A stretch of DNA of 29,744 bases, taken from positions 1 through 29,744 of IMG/VR virus record IMGVR_UViG_3300023180_000279; one strand, written 5' to 3'. Made by a program: the position numbers and the translations under genes. The notes under the pieces were generated by a model, which was given only the letters and a program-made list of their open reading frames with translations, was not told where the DNA came from and made no database searches. Shown piece after piece: positions 329-18,200 of this stretch. Each line of letters opens with the position of its first letter. Position 1 is the stretch's first letter. The stretch is from a virus.

Positions 329-1123
329 TCAAATATCAGTTTGTTGTGTTGGACTATAAGACTTAGAATCACCCAGGTATTCCCATTCCTCACTAAATCC
401 AAAGTCATCACCAGGATTTGCATTAATTGGATCTGGGACAACTGTATATCTCATTTCTCTCTTGGCGGTTGTCCTATCGGTATCAGCATAGTTATCAACG
501 ATAACCTTGCGAATGAGACCCTCTGGATTGTCTGCGATAGGACCAAAGAGATAAGTTTTTGCAGTAAACTGTAATCTATATATTAACGCTCTTCTTGTGG
601 AAAAATCTCCTTCATAATCGTCTTGGAATGAGACACTGTTTAAGACGATTGGGATATCTCTCTTTTCTCCAATAGATTCGACTAAATCAACAGTCAAATT
701 AAACGCTGGTTGAAAGTTTGGAAGAATCTGCTCAACAATCTGTAAAGCATCATCATTTAACTTACATAAAATTGCCAACTCAAAACCAATGTTATACGGA
801 ACAGGCATGAATACCTTCTTCATGGTGTTTCCATCCACTGCTCTGAAAGTCTGAGTAACACCAGTCTTTCTTGTGGCATCATAGTCAATAGATGTCATCT
901 CAAATGACATTCTTGGCAATGTGATTTGAATCGGTTTGTTCAAATCTGCTTGCTGCTCAAGTCTTGCTAGAAACTTTTGAGTAGGTCCATATGCCAATGG
1001 AACTCTCATGTCACTAATGACTTTGGTTTCATCTTTGTGTTGAATATGAATATCATTAAAAAGCGTGCCAAAGGCAATGATAGTCTTTCTAATGATTTCG
1101 TGGTAGTGGTAAGTTCCTAACAT
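329..1123 (-). CDS. 15: Tail terminator / sheath stabiliser gp15
   Basis: Caps the tail tube and sheath at the neck and connects the finished tail to the head; in T4 it forms a hexamer under gp13/gp14. The 264-residue length is close to T4 gp15 (272). The N-terminus MLGTYHYHEIIRKTIIAFG corresponds to the T4 start (MFGYFYNSSFRRYATLMG-like), followed by a shared RVPLAYG segment. Around residues 130-140 the motif IVEQILPNFQPAFN is nearly identical to T4, and RDIPIVLNSVSFQDD and GLIRKVIVD also match T4 blocks. The start codon overlaps the gene 14 stop as TAATG, so translation is probably coupled. The acidic, Pro/Thr/Gln-rich C-terminal tail looks disordered. Identification is firm; oligomeric state is inferred from T4. 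Confidence 0.94.
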   Translation of the reverse strand: MLGTYHYHEIIRKTIIAFGTLFNDIHIQHKDETKVISDMRVPLAYGPTQKFLARLEQQADLNKPIQITLPRMSFEMTSIDYDATRKTGVTQTFRAVDGNTMKKVFMPVPYNIGFELAILCKLNDDALQIVEQILPNFQPAFNLTVDLVESIGEKRDIPIVLNSVSFQDDYEGDFSTRRALIYRLQFTAKTYLFGPIADNPEGLIRKVIVDNYADTDRTTAKREMRYTVVPDPINANPGDDFGFSEEWEYLGDSKSYSPTQQTDI

Positions 1124-2496
1124 TAATAGTTACCGAAAGGATTTGATTCTGTGAAGTCGAGTATATTGTCTGCTTCGAACTCAAGTTGATCATTTTGACT
1201 ATATTTATCGACAGTTGTGTTAGCTGCTGATACTCTCACCACATAACTAGCGCCAGATTTTGCACCTGTAATGATTTCCCCAGGATAGAAAGTTCCAGAA
1301 GAGATACCAACCTGAAGAATATTGGTGCTACTAGTCCACCTCTTAACCCTTGCAGTTGCTCCAGAAGTTCCCCCTGTAATGACTTCATTTTTCCAGAAGG
1401 TCCCAATACCAGTTGTGGATGCTGCACCAACTGTCAATGATGGTGTAGTCGTATAACCATCTCCAGGATTTGTAATTCTGATTGAAGTTACAGTTCCTGC
1501 AGATCCTACTACTGAGGTTGCTGTTGCTGTTGTTCCAGCACCAGGTCCAGAAATAGTCACTGTTGGGGCAACAGCATATCCCGATCCACCACCGGTAATA
1601 TTGACAGAAACTATACCATTTGATGTTGTATTGATAGAACAAGTTGCTGCAGCACCACTTCCACCACCACCTGTAATAGAAATAGTTGGGGCAACTGTAT
1701 AACCAGATCCAGCATTTGTCAATAATATCTCCTTAACGGATGTTATACTATTTCTTGTTGTAGTAATAGCAACTGCTGTTGCAGTTGTGAATCCCGTTGG
1801 TGGAGATGAGAACGTAACCGTAGGAGTGCTAGTATATCCGGATCCATCATCATTTAGGAAAATTTGTCTCACGTAACTACTACCAATGCTTACTGAAGCA
1901 TTTGCATTAGATCCACCTGAGAAAAGTCTGAGATCAATAATATATCCAGTTTGATCTAATACTTCACTGATTTCATCGACCGTAGTATCAATAACTTCAT
2001 CTTCGTATTCGAAGAGTTCACATTTCAGTTCATAGACATAGTTTTTACCTAACTGATAGAAAGGTTGCTCATGCTCTACAAACTTAACCTCAAATATTCT
2101 TTGACCGAGTGGGAAATAAATCAAATCTCCTTCTCTAGGTCTTGAAGATACTGTGATTTCTTCATCATCCATATCCTCAAGAAAAACTGAGATAAAGTCT
2201 TCGAATCTTTCTTTCGAAATAGTCAAAGATAACTCATCTCTAATACTTACACCAAACTTTGTCATTATATCGCCAGCACCACTGTATCCATCAAAGTTAT
2301 TAATATATGCTTCAAGCAAGAAGTTATCATCAAACGTTGATGATTGAATCTCCTCAATAATCGTTTGCTTTCTTACAAACTTTCTTGGAATGTAAGTTAC
2401 CTCTACACCATAGATCTTGAGTTGTTCATTGATCAACTCTTGAACTAATCTTTGTTCTCCGTAAGAACCTTGAAGAAAGAAGGGATTTAATGCCAT
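1123..2496 (-). CDS. 14: Neck protein gp14 with inserted GSGY beta repeats
   Basis: Head-completion/neck protein that, with gp13, seals the portal vertex after packaging and receives the tail. The N-terminal ~185 residues carry the T4 gp14 core: YGVEVTYIPRKFV, a NNFDGYSG block, EGDLIYFPLGQRIFEV and FYQLGKNYVYELK. The last ~20 residues (FTESNPFGNY) match the T4 gp14 C-terminus (SSPFDNDFMD type). Between them, residues ~205-345 hold four GSGY/GDGY units (GSGYTSTPTV, GSGYTVAPTI, GSGYAVAPTV, GDGYTTTPSL) about 40 residues apart, then a second Gly/Thr-rich unit (GEIITGAKSGASYVV). The protein is therefore 457 residues, against 256 in T4; the extra length is nearly all this insert. It starts in a TAATG overlap with gene 13, with only a weak GGA upstream. 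The insert probably forms a beta-rich decoration on the neck; that role is inferred. Confidence 0.93.
   Translation of the reverse strand: MALNPFFLQGSYGEQRLVQELINEQLKIYGVEVTYIPRKFVRKQTIIEEIQSSTFDDNFLLEAYINNFDGYSGAGDIMTKFGVSIRDELSLTISKERFEDFISVFLEDMDDEEITVSSRPREGDLIYFPLGQRIFEVKFVEHEQPFYQLGKNYVYELKCELFEYEDEVIDTTVDEISEVLDQTGYIIDLRLFSGGSNANASVSIGSSYVRQIFLNDDGSGYTSTPTVTFSSPPTGFTTATAVAITTTRNSITSVKEILLTNAGSGYTVAPTISITGGGGSGAAATCSINTTSNGIVSVNITGGGSGYAVAPTVTISGPGAGTTATATSVVGSAGTVTSIRITNPGDGYTTTPSLTVGAASTTGIGTFWKNEVITGGTSGATARVKRWTSSTNILQVGISSGTFYPGEIITGAKSGASYVVRVSAANTTVDKYSQNDQLEFEADNILDFTESNPFGNY
1440..1860 (-). repeat. Four GSGY beta repeats inside gp14
   Basis: Four degenerate protein-level repeats of roughly 40 residues (spacings about 43, 39 and 42), each with a Gly-(Ser/Asp)-Gly-Tyr turn, then Thr/Ala-Pro-Thr/Ser, a short beta strand and a Gly/Ala/Thr-rich linker. 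The bases are similar but not identical, so the copies have diverged. The same unit occurs in the gp8, DUF4815 and gp7-like genes of this window. Confidence 0.8.
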
Positions 2497-3341
2497 TATC
2501 CAATAAAGTCGTAGGGAGGAAGTTCATAATCCATTGCCATTCTTGATCTTATCTGTTCTATCTCTCTTTCAGCGTCTTCAAAAATCTCTCTACCATTCAA
2601 CTCAATTCCACCAGGAAGTTTAACACCCCTAAACTTGATTAAGTTTTGACCCCACTGACGCTTGATCAATGCAGTCAAATACTTCTTGACAAAACTGTCA
2701 TTGTAGACTGCTGTATAGTCTGATGGATTTAAGATTCTGTAGCAATCAATCACTAAGAAATCGCCAACAGATTGTGATTTCCAATCAATGTCAAGATACA
2801 GTCTATTTTGTCTCTTATTAAATCTTATCTGCTTATCTGTCGTTAAAAGGAAGTCAATATCTTCAAGATATGACTTGACCATCGCATATTGTAACAATTC
2901 AACCGAGTTGAAGTTGTATAGATCATTCAAAAACAACTGATATTTGATACTAAACATTCCACCAGATATTGCGCTGGTGTCAAATCTAAAAATCTTCTCA
3001 ATACCGATTACAGAATCTGGTATTTGGATAAAGTTTGATGTTTCGTAGAAGTTTGAGGTTGTTGTTCCATATCCAGCGATTGATGTGGAAGTTGCGCTGG
3101 TTGTTACGATACCAACCCCGTTGATATTTTTCGCTCTACCTCTATCAAGATCCGATTGTGTGATCTGATATTTCAGATACATTCTTTCGACACCATCAAA
3201 GTGTCTTTCTTGGAAATACTGAAGAGCATCATCGACCAAATCATCAATCTGGTCGTCATCTACGTTAATTTCCAATACTGGAGCACCTAACCGCCTAAGA
3301 CAGTAATCAATTAGTTCTTGGCGTGTTGATGGTTTTGCCAT
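2496..3341 (-). CDS. 13: Neck protein gp13
   Basis: Head-completion protein that binds beneath the portal and, with gp14, closes the filled head so that the tail can attach. The N-terminus STRQELIDYCLRRLGAPVLE followed by INVDDDQIDDLVDDALQYF is the hallmark of T4-like gp13, as is the downstream YLKYQITQSDL stretch. The length of 281 residues is near T4 gp13 (309). The C-terminus is rich in charged helix and ends ELPPYDFIG. The start overlaps the upstream small gene as TAATG, and a GAGG seven bases before the ATG supports this start. Direct adjacency to gp14 and gp15 is the T4 neck cassette. No oddities seen. Confidence 0.94.
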   Translation of the reverse strand: MAKPSTRQELIDYCLRRLGAPVLEINVDDDQIDDLVDDALQYFQERHFDGVERMYLKYQITQSDLDRGRAKNINGVGIVTTSATSTSIAGYGTTTSNFYETSNFIQIPDSVIGIEKIFRFDTSAISGGMFSIKYQLFLNDLYNFNSVELLQYAMVKSYLEDIDFLLTTDKQIRFNKRQNRLYLDIDWKSQSVGDFLVIDCYRILNPSDYTAVYNDSFVKKYLTALIKRQWGQNLIKFRGVKLPGGIELNGREIFEDAEREIEQIRSRMAMDYELPPYDFIG

Positions 3342-3565
3342 TAGAATTCCTCAGAAGATGAATTATCTGTTTTTGTAGTTTTTCTGGTATTTTTTGCTTT
3401 TAACTTTTCAATCTCATCATTCTGCTCATTGATCTTTTTAGTCAATGCTTCAATCATTTGATTTGAACTTATCACCTTTGCTTCAAGAGCAATATTCTGA
3501 TTAAACAAATCGTATGATTTTTGTTGGTATACTCCAATAAAGTTTTTATAATCGTTTTCAGTCAT
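3341..3565 (-). CDS. Small coiled-coil protein, first gene of the neck operon
   Basis: A 74-residue protein of unknown function. It begins MTENDYKNFIGVYQQKSYD and is followed by heptad-like leucine/isoleucine positions (IALEAKVIS, MIEALTKKINEQNDEIEKL) that predict one long coiled coil, then a basic/serine-rich tail ending SSSEEF. I recall very similar small proteins in marine T4-like phages just upstream of gene 13, always unassigned. Its stop overlaps the gene 13 start (TAATG), so it is co-translated with the neck proteins. It could be a small virion component or an assembly chaperone; neither is shown. It is the first gene after an exact late promoter and a 5' hairpin, and its ATG lacks a recognisable Shine-Dalgarno sequence. 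Confidence 0.85.
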   Translation of the reverse strand: MTENDYKNFIGVYQQKSYDLFNQNIALEAKVISSNQMIEALTKKINEQNDEIEKLKAKNTRKTTKTDNSSSEEF

Positions 3566-3580
3566 GTCAAGATACTAAAA

Positions 3581-3602
3581 TGGGTAGGATTGCTCCTACC
3601 CA
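3581..3602 (-). terminator. Rho-independent-type hairpin (9-bp stem, GCAA loop, T-run)
   Basis: On the minus strand the sequence reads TGGGTAGGA-GCAA-TCCTACCCA followed by TTTT. The stem is a perfect 9-bp inverted repeat, the loop is a GNRA-type GCAA tetraloop and the T-run is short. It lies in the gap after the repeat-fibre gene stop (3627) and before the 74-residue gene, so it probably ends transcripts from the fibre block. The stem begins immediately after the TATAAATA late promoter, so a transcript started there would carry all or most of this stem at its 5' end. Confidence 0.75.
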
Positions 3603-3610
3603 TATTTATA
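3603..3610 (-). promoter_or_regulatory. T4-type late promoter TATAAATA for the neck operon
   Basis: Exact match to the T4 late promoter octamer TATAAATA, which T4 reads with the gp55 sigma factor, gp33 and the sliding clamp. It lies in an intergenic gap, oriented toward the 74-residue gene and genes 13-16. By eye the exact octamer occurs on the coding strand only here, at 15245-15252 and at 29416-29423, all three between genes. Confidence 0.82.
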
Positions 3611-3626
3611 AGTTATTTGTTATTTA

Positions 3627-5582
3627 TCAGAATGACCCACAATCAATGAGGGTATTTTCTAATACGATGGATGATCTGCTAGCGTCATGGAAGAGAACCG
3701 TTGTTCCTGCTCCCATTGGGCTTCCACCACCATCATTAATAAACAGTTTTCCAAATTCAACTTCAGCGTATGCAATCTGAGTAAATACGCTTGAAGATTC
3801 TGTTACAGAAGATGCGAATGCAACCCTTGCGGCAGAATCATCCCAGAAAACAGATGCTTTTCTAGCGGCAGTATCAAAGTAGTGGAATACGACACCAACA
3901 TCAATGTTTGCGTCAGATGAAGGAGCAACAAGACTACCACCACTGTTAACAAGACCAATTTCAATCAGACTATCTTCAACCAGAAGAGTTTCTGTATTGA
4001 CTTCTGTTTGTGATCCAAGAACGATTAACTTACCACTAACAGTAAGGTCACTAGCGACGCCAACGTGACCATTTGAGTCTGTAATCGTGATGGAAGTCGT
4101 TCCATCTTTTGCTTTGACGTTTGTTACTTCAATCGATGTAACATCAATCGTATTATTAACAGTCAGTACATTACTATTGAATGTCAGTGCTCCACCACTA
4201 TCATTAACTGCTCCAGAAGCACCAGCAACAAGGACATCAAACTGAGTTAAATCGGAAACAGTTAACGTATTTCCTGTTGTAACTGTTATGTCACCATTGG
4301 CAGTTACATTACCAGTAAACGTTGATACTCCAGTAACACTCAGATTGTCATCAATTGTGGTCTGACCACTTGCGGAATCTAATGTAAGACCGCCACTTGA
4401 GGTGTCAATCTCATTATCATCGCTTACGCCAATCTGAATGTTATCAATCGTTGCGCTGCCATTAGCATCAATAGCGCCAGTAAAGGTTGTAGCACCAGTA
4501 AATGTTGATACTCCAGTAACACTCAGGTTGTCATCAATAGTAGTTTGACCACTTGAAGAATCAAGGGTAAGACCACCCGTTGAAGTATCGATTTCATTGT
4601 TATCGGTTATACCGATTTGAATATTATCAATCGTAGCACCGCCATTGGCATCAATGACGCCAGTGAAGGTTGAAACACCTGTTACGCTTAACTGGTCATC
4701 AACAATAACTGTTCCAGCAGCGGAATCGAGGGTAAGATTTCCAGATGAAGTATCAATCTCTGATGCGCCAGTGATTCCAATCTGGATAGCATCAGCAACA
4801 GCGCCAGTTGAAAACGTGCCTACGCCAGCAAAGTTTGCGTGTCTCCATGCTTTACCAGCAGCACCAAGATCAAATGCATCATTAGTTGTTGGAACTAAGT
4901 TTGATGCAAACTCACCACCGATGACAACATCATCAGTGTCAGAGTCACCAAGATTAATAGTGCCACCTCTAAAGGTTACAACACCAATAAACTCAGATTC
5001 TCCACCAACAAAAAGATTTCCTGTGATGGTGGTTGCTCCACCGACACTCAGGTTCTTCTCAATACCGACGCCACCTTCTACTACAACGGCACCAGTATCT
5101 TTATTAGTTGATTGTGTGGTATTGCTAAAGGTAACAATACCAGAAAAATCAACAGCAGCAGCATTGACATCAAGATTGGTGTTAGCAATCGTTGTAACAC
5201 CACTTAAGACAGTATCGGTAAGTGATGCTCCAGTGATTGCTGTAGACCAACTCAGACCACCTGTTGAGTTAGTTTTTAAGAAACCTCCATCAGTCGGAGT
5301 TCCGGGGAAAGTGTATGTAGTTACACCAGATAGAGACGAGGGAGCAGCAAGTGTTATAAAGTCTGTTCCGCTGGTGTTCTCTACCAGGTTAACACCACTA
5401 CCAGAGGAAGCAGTCTCTTGCGTCCAATATCTGTGTGAACCAACAAACTTATTGTTTGCTAATACGCTATCTAATCCAATAAATAAGTCAAATTTGTCAG
5501 TCGTAAAACCAGGCTCACCTGCTTTCAACGCTGGCAGATTACTAAAGGCACCTCTTTTAAACTGTAATACAGGAGTCGCCAT
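3627..5582 (-). CDS. Repeat-containing fibre/whisker-type structural protein (at the wac position)
   Basis: A 651-residue, Ser/Thr/Gly/Val-rich protein, probably a trimeric fibre or whisker. The N-terminus (LQFKRGAFSNLPAL, then AGEPGFTTD and LFIG) is the short head-like domain seen at the start of many phage fibres, similar to the Mtd N-terminal domain. Residues ~265-425 hold three copies of a 55-61-residue unit: IQIG...EIDTSSGxLTLDS...SVTGVSTFTG. The C-terminal third contains GKLIVLGSQTEVNTETLLVE and VFHYFDTAARKASVFWDD, segments I associate with marine T4-like structural proteins. It sits just before gene 13, where T4 has fibritin (wac), so a neck-whisker role is plausible but unproved; a baseplate fibre is the alternative. 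A 50-base gap precedes it; the nearest AAGGA is about 14 bases from the ATG. A hairpin terminator follows it. Confidence 0.82.
   Translation of the reverse strand: MATPVLQFKRGAFSNLPALKAGEPGFTTDKFDLFIGLDSVLANNKFVGSHRYWTQETASSGSGVNLVENTSGTDFITLAAPSSLSGVTTYTFPGTPTDGGFLKTNSTGGLSWSTAITGASLTDTVLSGVTTIANTNLDVNAAAVDFSGIVTFSNTTQSTNKDTGAVVVEGGVGIEKNLSVGGATTITGNLFVGGESEFIGVVTFRGGTINLGDSDTDDVVIGGEFASNLVPTTNDAFDLGAAGKAWRHANFAGVGTFSTGAVADAIQIGITGASEIDTSSGNLTLDSAAGTVIVDDQLSVTGVSTFTGVIDANGGATIDNIQIGITDNNEIDTSTGGLTLDSSSGQTTIDDNLSVTGVSTFTGATTFTGAIDANGSATIDNIQIGVSDDNEIDTSSGGLTLDSASGQTTIDDNLSVTGVSTFTGNVTANGDITVTTGNTLTVSDLTQFDVLVAGASGAVNDSGGALTFNSNVLTVNNTIDVTSIEVTNVKAKDGTTSITITDSNGHVGVASDLTVSGKLIVLGSQTEVNTETLLVEDSLIEIGLVNSGGSLVAPSSDANIDVGVVFHYFDTAARKASVFWDDSAARVAFASSVTESSSVFTQIAYAEVEFGKLFINDGGGSPMGAGTTVLFHDASRSSIVLENTLIDCGSF
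4308..4787 (-). repeat. Tandem repeats in the fibre gene (165, 183 and ~132 bp)
   Basis: Three head-to-tail units start at 4787, 4622 and 4439. The first is 55 codons and the second 61; the third matches for about 44 codons and then diverges. Shared core: IQIG, then EIDTS-G-LTLDS, IDD-LSVTGVSTFTG. The six extra codons in unit 2 encode ATTFTG next to STFTG, which looks like a local duplication. Third-position differences show that the units are not recent identical copies. Confidence 0.85.
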
Positions 5583-15253: not shown

Positions 15254-18200
15254 CTATCCTAGATCCTTTCTAAGACCACCAGTATCTCTCAATCCATATC
15301 CTCTTCTCTGAATCGTTGGGAAAGTAGTCAATCCAGAGTCAACTGTTAATCCTGTTACACCGATTGAGATTGGTGATGATGATCTAGTGAAACCAGACAA
15401 TCTACCCCAAGAGAATCTTCCAACAGGGCTGGTTGTAAATCCAGTTATTGCCAATCCAGTAACATCTGTTGATGAAAGAATGTTGACAGTGATGTCCGCA
15501 TTAGATCCACCTGGAGTATTCAAACCATTAACAACATAAACATTATCCAGGAAAGTGGTTCCAACACCAACAACTGAAGTATCATGACTGTCGATTGAAG
15601 TTACACCAGATCCAATAGGAGTATTGAAAATGTAGATTGGATATCCAGTGCTGAGACCAGTGAATGATGATGCATTCAAGAAGAACTTGAGAGCAAGATC
15701 TGTTCCGATTCCAGCAACTGTTGTGATACCAGTGATGATTCCAGAAGATCCTTGGACCGTATCAATGCTGAGAATGTTCTCATAAGTTACATTAGCAGTT
15801 GGTGCAAGAACCGTAGGTGGATTGGATGTTGTATACCCAAGACCTGGATTCGTGATTGTAAGTGAAGTTATGATTCCACTGGTTATTGAAGCAGTTGCGG
15901 TTGCGGTTGTTCCAACACCAACACCGATCGACTTAGGTGCAGCGATTGAAATGGAGGTAGATGCTCCAACATATCCAGATCCACCACTTACGATAGACAG
16001 TGAAGAGATGGTTCCTGCTGCAGAAACAACAGCAGTTATTGCTGCTGCTACAGGATCTCCACCAGTAACAATAAGAGCATCAACATCTGCGATAACAATA
16101 GAAGACTCATTTTCTTCGTAGTTGAAGAATTGGGCATCATCAACAAATATTTCAGTATCTGAAGAGCTCAGATCACCAATAATCTTTGCAGTTGGATAGA
16201 CTTGAGACTCAATAGAATCTCTAGACTTATAAACATCATCTCCACTGATTCTGACATCTCTCTTTTGCTTGGACCAATCTACTGGTTTGTAGTTATTTTC
16301 GTCTATTCCGAGACCGGAATAGATATTGGTCTCAACCAAGTCAGAAGAATTAACGCTATACACCAATCTTGATGTCTGAGATACGGTATCATCAATGGAG
16401 TTGTTCTTGCGAACTCTCAATGTATCGCCAGATTTTACAAGTTCATTTACATCTACGTTAAGACTATCAGTTCCTCTAGTTCCTCTATAGAAGAAGATAT
16501 CAATATTATCACCTTCATCAGGTGCTTCAGTGAATGTGATAGAAGTTCCACCTTCAAATCTGTAACTTGAACCTGGTTCTTGAATGACACCGTTGATAAA
16601 GATCAGCAGAACACTATTCAGATCAATCTTAGAAGATCTTGAATCATTTTCATCAATTTCAAAACTTAACAACTCACCATTGTAGTAAAGTGGGAATCTA
16701 GTCTTTACGCCATTCTGAAGGGAGTCGATAGGATCGATGAAGTCAAGTTCTCCAAACTGCCAAGCAGAGAAGGAATCTGAGAATGTATCTAAAACTGTTA
16801 GTTCAAACTGACTGACAGGAGAAGAAAGATTTCTATCTGTAACCAGACCAACAACAGTAACTACATCACCATTTCTAAATCCATATCCAGGTCTAGAAAT
16901 CTTGAATGACTTGACTTCAAACAGTGTAGATCCAATACCAACAGAAGTTGATGCTGCTCCAACCTCAAGAGAAACTAAGAGATTGGATCCAGTATCCGTT
17001 GTTGCTCCAAATCCAACTCTAGAAACACCTACAACCTCAAGATTTTCATAAGATGGTTCTGATACGAGAATAGAAGGATTGGTATATCCAGTTCCACCAG
17101 CGCCAACGGCGAATGACAAAGTTCCACCAGCACCAACAGTTGCTGTAATAGAAGCAACATCTCCAACGTGACCACTTTCAAATACTGTTACACCAATAGA
17201 AACGATTCCATTATATCCAGATCCAACAATATCCGTAGATCCAAGACCAATGGAAACAATAGATCCACCTGCCCCAACAACAGCAGTTACAGATGCTCCA
17301 ACAAGAGGTGCATATCCAAGACCAGGTGTTGATCCAAGAGAAACGATAACTCCGCCTCTTGGTAACTGATTTTGATTAACATCATAAGTTGACTTCAGAA
17401 TACCACCAGTTGTTGTAACTCCTGTAAATATGACATTTGATCCACCACCACTTTCAGCAAAACTATAGTTGTTGCCAACATTGTTGTCTGTTGTTGGTGT
17501 TTGGAAGATATCGTTGATAAACAGAATACCACTTCCAGTCTCAATACCAGTTGTATTTGCTCCGCCAACATTTAATCTATATGTTTGACCTATACCAGTG
17601 AATGACTTGGAAATATTATCGAAAATTTTGTTTCCACTGTAATCATCTCTCAGGTATACTCTTGCATTAAATGATGATCTAGCAAATGGGAGATTGCCAG
17701 AATCTACAGTGCTCACATTGTTTCCGAGTGGTGCTTCTGTAAAGTGAATCTGATTACCTGCGATATTGAATCCTCCAAGATAAACTCTTGCTTCAACACC
17801 ATCGGTATGTGATGTTGCCGAAGATCCTACAAATCCTCTTGTAGACTCAATAAGATTAAAGGTTCCAATACCTGTGATAGGACCGATAGTAGTCGTTCCT
17901 AATCCTACAGAATCAACTCTTACATACTCATTTTCTATCTTAAGGATATCTCCTGGAAGAATAGAAGATATTCCAGAGAGAGTGAAGAATGTTGATGCGG
18001 CAGAAACGGTTCCACCATTAAAAGCAAGGTTATGACTTACTGGTGTAAACGCTATTGGACTCTGAACAACACCATCAACGGTTACGATGGATTTCTCCAT
18101 CTTCTTATCCATTTCAAGTGTGTGAGCATTTCCAGTTCCAACAGAGCTGAATGTTATTGCAGTTCCAGCAATAGCATTTGCTCTGGTCGTTGCCAGTTTA

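Follow-up and report, generated by a model that had tools for sequence, protein, structure and literature searches.

Does the element between the tail-fibre and neck genes of a T4-like cyanophage end the transcription that reaches it, start transcription of its own, or combine the two? The window analysed here, that is, the whole stretch of 29,744 bases, is a contig of such a phage, and all of its DNA matches to named phages are to cyanophages or marine viruses, at 60–80% identity. Its minus-strand late genes include those for baseplate wedge proteins, 2 giant structural genes, and genes for a fibre assembly protein, a 651-aa fibre-like protein, a 74-aa protein and the products of genes 13, 14 and 15. 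The element lies between the fibre-like gene and the 74-aa gene, the latter standing ahead of the neck genes 13, 14 and 15 (Table 1). The original prediction had proposed for it a dual role, as a late promoter fused to a perfect hairpin that could serve both as a terminator and as a structured 5' end of the neck mRNA.

Table 1. Features of the fibre–neck junction and its neighbouring genes (window coordinates).
Feature	Position	Strand	Remark
Gene 14, neck protein, head closure Hc2, fibre-like C-terminal part	1123..2496	-	phrog_460, E 3.5e-139
Gene 13, neck protein, head-tail adaptor Ad2	2496..3341	-	phrog_211, E 1.8e-49
74-aa gene, first after the element	3341..3565	-	conserved small protein; coiled-coil-like composition
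U tract TTTT, then AG	3577..3580	-	short here; 5–7 T in most relatives
Hairpin right arm TCCTACCCA	3581..3589	-	pairs with left arm
GCAA loop	3590..3593	-	read from sequence
Hairpin left arm TGGGTAGGA	3594..3602	-	perfect complement of 3589-3581; pairing kept in relatives with double changes
Predicted transcription start (+1), within left arm	3597	-	inferred from T4 box spacing
T4-type late promoter box TATAAATA	3603..3610	-	exact octamer
Second box-like octamer GATAAATA, partly fibre stop codon	3621..3628	-	18 bases upstream of main box
651-aa fibre-like structural gene, upstream of the element	3627..5582	-	phrog_697, E 7.6e-14

Among the neighbouring genes, the C-terminal part of gene 14 also matches phrog_5342 and phrog_701, which are fibre or virion-structural families, as if a fibre-like domain had been fused to the neck protein. 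The 74-aa protein found no match among the PHROG families; its own family carries the signature MNE.DYKNLI..YQQKS.DLFSQ..ALEAK. In phage S-B43, the 74-aa homologue precedes tail-fibre genes rather than gene 13.

The minus-strand letters bear out exactly the base arrangement on which the original prediction was built: the box abuts a perfect 9-bp stem without a gap, and the GCAA loop and TTTT follow. Pairing of the box's final A (3603) with T3580 would lengthen the stem to 10 bp, and 15 bases (3580-3566) lie between the stem and the ATG of the 74-aa gene at 3565. The exact octamer upstream of late structural genes, TATAAATA or NATAAATA, is shared with T4-type late promoters, and NATAAATA is the published late-promoter motif of cyanomyoviruses, as described for S-PM2 (PMC2984593). 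Unlike at the usual T4 late promoters, a GC-rich stem follows the box here and not an AT-rich stretch, which is usual in T4 without being a strict requirement (PMC2988020). No stem follows either of the 2 other exact TATAAATA boxes of the window (15252-15245 and 29423-29416), and the stem is therefore no part of the promoter itself. RNA begun at the second box-like octamer, GATAAATA, would hold the whole hairpin and should be terminated; this octamer is missing in many relatives that keep the main element.

The hairpin has the attributes of a Rho-independent terminator, namely a perfect GC-rich stem, a short loop, a U tract and a position at the end of an operon; it departs from the usual form in having a promoter built into its left arm. 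A 51-nt stretch of the element folds as RNA at -17.2 kcal/mol (z = -5.4), and none of 200 dinucleotide shuffles was equally stable. It is the top terminator-like match in the 15 kb scanned, where the total of 9 such matches was not above that in shuffles (7.7). In shuffled sequence, the octamer followed directly by a stem of 8 bp or more turns up about 0.01 times per window. When a terminator score from the literature was applied to 43 distinct elements, 42 scored above 0; the short U run of the window's element, of the weakest type (UUUU then A), leaves its score close to the threshold. The stable GC-rich stem-loop thus stands directly before a U tract in the manner of an intrinsic terminator, with a tail that is weak in the window and strong in most relatives. 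Rfam covariance models gave no match to window positions 3400–3800 up to E = 1.

Conservation of the element was assessed in relatives of gene 13, of the fibre gene and of 3 different 74-aa proteins, collected irrespective of the presence of the element and supplemented with named phages. For the 74-aa family, this yielded 72 distinct upstream sequences from 124 loci, 51 of which have the NATAAATA box and, directly against it, a GC stem of 6 bp or more. Another 3 combine a stem with a CTAAATA-type box, which abuts the stem in L481 and L477 and lies 6 nt from it in phage DSL-LC02. Neither box nor stem is present in 16 sequences; in most of these, the small gene lies right next to the fibre stop or a weak match is misplaced. 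Loss of the stem with retention of the promoter, which the original prediction had named as evidence against itself, was scored in the remaining 2 sequences: L060 is a real stem loss and the one clear case, whereas L480 keeps a weaker, AU-rich abutting stem. The element is also present in the named isolates S-B05 (at 44916-44947), S-B43 (at 17135-17166), RN05-S and RB11-B. A pattern scan of viral contigs in which only TATAAATA, GGTNGG and a T run were fixed returned 120 matches; 81 of these can form the stem, and all but 2 of the stem-forming matches (79) lie at the junction of a fibre gene and a 74-aa homologue. Since the fibre and small proteins have diverged to approximately 35–50% identity in many of these loci, the element outlasts the divergence of its surroundings.

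Within an alignment of 29 diverse elements, TAAATA of the box is invariant and the first 2 positions nearly so, whereas the loop and the flanks vary. The spacing from box to stem is nearly fixed, unlike the length of the loop and the distance to the ATG. Loops are free in both sequence and length (TGTATT, CGAGT, ATAA and CATTGT among others), for which reason the GNRA loop was rejected as a functional feature. The stem is occupied at the same place by different families of complementary arms, including GGGTAGGA/TCCTACCC, AGGTGGG/CCCACCT, AGAGGGAG/CTCCCTCT, AGGGGAGC/GCTCCCTT and AAGAGGGTA/TACCCTCTT. Compensatory changes in the stem, proposed at the outset as a check, were found with pairing preserved: 89.2% of the stem cells are paired, compared with 82.5% in shuffles, and 19 cells are changed on both sides, compared with 8.0, although these counts overstate the number of independent events, as the sequences in the set are related. 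Covariation exceeded that in all 500 shuffles, and sliding the stem register lowered pairing to 50–65%. Some alignment rows are one base out of register, a bias that runs against the pairing result. Taken on these sequence comparisons, the element is a conserved unit.

Where new transcripts would begin bears directly on what the hairpin could do to them. The T4 late box spans positions -13 to -6 (PMC1524935); with the last A of the box at 3603, the predicted +1 is therefore 3597, a position carried over from T4. Counted over 10 bp, this is position 7 of the left arm, in keeping with the expectation that T4 spacing would place the start inside the stem or at its edge, and 41 of the 43 distinct elements have G or A at the predicted start. 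Across these elements, the mean folding energy drops from -13.5 kcal/mol for the whole element to -4.2 kcal/mol for RNA from the predicted +1. The remnant in the window is a 4-bp stem of -3.6 kcal/mol, out of contact with the U tract; being small and removed from that tract, it should not terminate by the usual rules. The promoter's own RNA should, on this folding model, escape the hairpin. The spacing exception is DSL-LC02 (L084, 2646-2691, minus strand), where 6 nt separate the CTAAATA box from the stem; the start is predicted at the stem base, and the RNA would keep the stem.

A structured 5' end fares less well. The remnant folds at approximately 0 kcal/mol in several relatives, with almost nothing left in L592, L481, L478 and L477, and since it is weak or gone, a stable 5' structure is not the conserved feature. 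What stands of the proposed dual role is thus a putative terminator with an embedded late promoter, for which the 51 of 72 upstream sequences, the compensatory changes and the U-rich tails argue; the 5' cap finds no support.

We consider it likely, from the sequence comparisons, that the element combines an intrinsic terminator with a late promoter lodged in the terminator's 5' half and that it borders the tail-fibre and neck transcription units. A reading in which the hairpin is a terminator only, and the box merely one of the A-rich flanks that are common before such stems (e.g., of the 'aaaagg' type), seems unlikely to us: the box reads exactly NATAAATA in almost every element and CTAAATA in the others, the T residues at its positions 3 and 7 are unable to pair with the U tract, the comparison of genomes shows boxes clustered at this position, and the window box scan found no other box close to the neck operon downstream. 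It is less probable still that the hairpin serves chiefly to protect the fibre mRNA at its 3' end or is a processing site, with the box overlapping it for compactness. Terminator hairpins commonly protect 3' ends, and the gap between the genes is short, but this reading leaves unexplained why the spacing from box to stem is nearly fixed while the loop length and the distance to the ATG vary.

The geometry also recalls a known translational switch. In T4 e, soc, 49 and I-TevI, a hairpin hides the ribosome site on longer RNAs, and for e and I-TevI it is stated explicitly that the position of the late promoter leaves the 5' part of the hairpin out of the late RNA (PMC2988022, PMC3014915); T4 reviews list gene 49 among those whose translation start carries an inhibitory hairpin (PMC3014915). 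The present element resembles these genes, as well as segB and mobE of Aeh1, in having the late box in left-arm DNA, in its case at the base of the arm with the predicted +1 at 3597, so that early or middle RNAs would keep the hairpin and late RNAs would lose it. By analogy, long RNAs might here hide the ribosome site of the 74-aa gene in a hairpin that late RNAs lack, a reading favoured by the matching geometry, with a late promoter in the left arm (PMC2988022, PMC3014915), and by a blind geometry scan that also recovered the T4 gene 49 site, which served as a positive control. Several features make such a switch very improbable, and they lend no support to the effect on translation suggested in the original prediction. 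The right arm, which late RNA would retain, is pyrimidine-rich (CCTACCC or CCCACCT), holds neither a Shine-Dalgarno sequence nor a start codon, and stops 15 bases short of the ATG; it is the U run, not a ribosome site, that is conserved after the stem. AGGAG in the left arm was rejected as a Shine-Dalgarno sequence, as the ATG is approximately 28 nt away and stems of the AGGTGGG type lack this motif. Unlike in T4 e, soc, 49 and I-TevI, a U run follows here, no ribosome site is hidden and transcription would end. Because the sequestration of a ribosome site is lacking, the element is not a T4-type translational switch; by analogy, it would work like the T4 promoter-in-hairpin elements without being one of them.

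To place the promoter built into a terminator among other operon borders, we considered junctions at which both signals meet. A terminator-like hairpin is present at all 70 distinct junctions after the major capsid gene (gene 23) of T4-like phages, and a box at 54 of them. Terminator and late box thus stand together at the operon border, as they do here, but in the other order: 53 of the 54 boxes lie beyond the U tract and one (L674) precedes the stem, whereas in the element the box comes first and the predicted start lies inside the stem. In the gene-23 junctions L599–L678, a terminator with a late box shortly after it is the rule, and many of the loops are TTCG. In relation to the 198 terminators of 9 complete genomes, boxes lie 0–9 nt before the stem in 6 cases and 0–19 nt after it in 18, with only 5 other boxes within 70 nt. 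Judged by position, 2 arrangements stand out, in which the promoter either follows the terminator or is apparently fused into it. Sites of the fused order include S-B43, at the homologous junction, and T4 gene 49.

The fused layout also occurs at other junctions. In another T4-like clade (L310, L326 and relatives), a TATAAATA box abuts a GGGGGAGC/GCTCCCCC terminator directly after gene 23, ahead of the tail tube and uvsY genes. Since the same layout recurs there at a different junction, more than one origin seems likely. Matches to a second pattern, TATAAATA before GGGG-CCCC-TTTT, show the layout elsewhere but yield no rate, since the pattern itself demands the stem. In the marine contigs L385, L353, L403 and L400, TATAAATA abuts stems of the GGGGAC..GTCCCC-TTTTTT type, upstream of a gene for a protein of approximately 156 aa and a phrog_455 gene. 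In S-PM2 (NC_006820, approximately 115168-115200; L596), GATAAATA overlaps a hairpin with GGAGG in its right arm, and the start of a gene for a RusA-like Holliday junction resolvase follows immediately. T4 gene 49 likewise encodes a Holliday junction resolvase, and the S-PM2 site looks like the gene 49 arrangement.

From the directly observed sequence, conservation, pairing and spacing, we infer termination, the start site and the use of gp55 as follows. RNA arriving from the fibre gene would form the whole stem followed by U residues and would be released. A polymerase of the gp55 type would bind the box and start approximately 6 bases after it, within the left arm; its RNA, lacking the stem base next to the U tract, would not rebuild the terminator and would continue into the 74-aa gene and then genes 13, 14 and 15. 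The nearly fixed spacing from box to stem would keep a promoter located upstream of a terminator from defeating itself. In the fused order, an arriving polymerase would cross the promoter before stopping, and its footprint would then lie on the promoter, which it could either block or feed. The latter might take the form of a hand-over, in which the polymerase that has freed the fibre mRNA stays on the DNA and restarts at the neck promoter with the late sigma factor. For Escherichia coli, in vitro work has shown that RNA polymerase can be recycled to promoters close by once it has terminated (PMC6978380). We regard a hand-over at this junction as doubtful; if true, it would couple neck synthesis to fibre transcription.

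A search of the open-access literature found no description of the terminator form of the fused layout. In such a compact phage genome, the stop and start signals would share 30 bases in a way that leaves the start unstopped, extending the T4 principle of a promoter in the hairpin from translation to termination. Predictors that handle terminators and promoters separately could miss or misread the element. It would offer a simple test of termination followed by re-initiation, and may predict operon borders in many uncultured T4-like phages.
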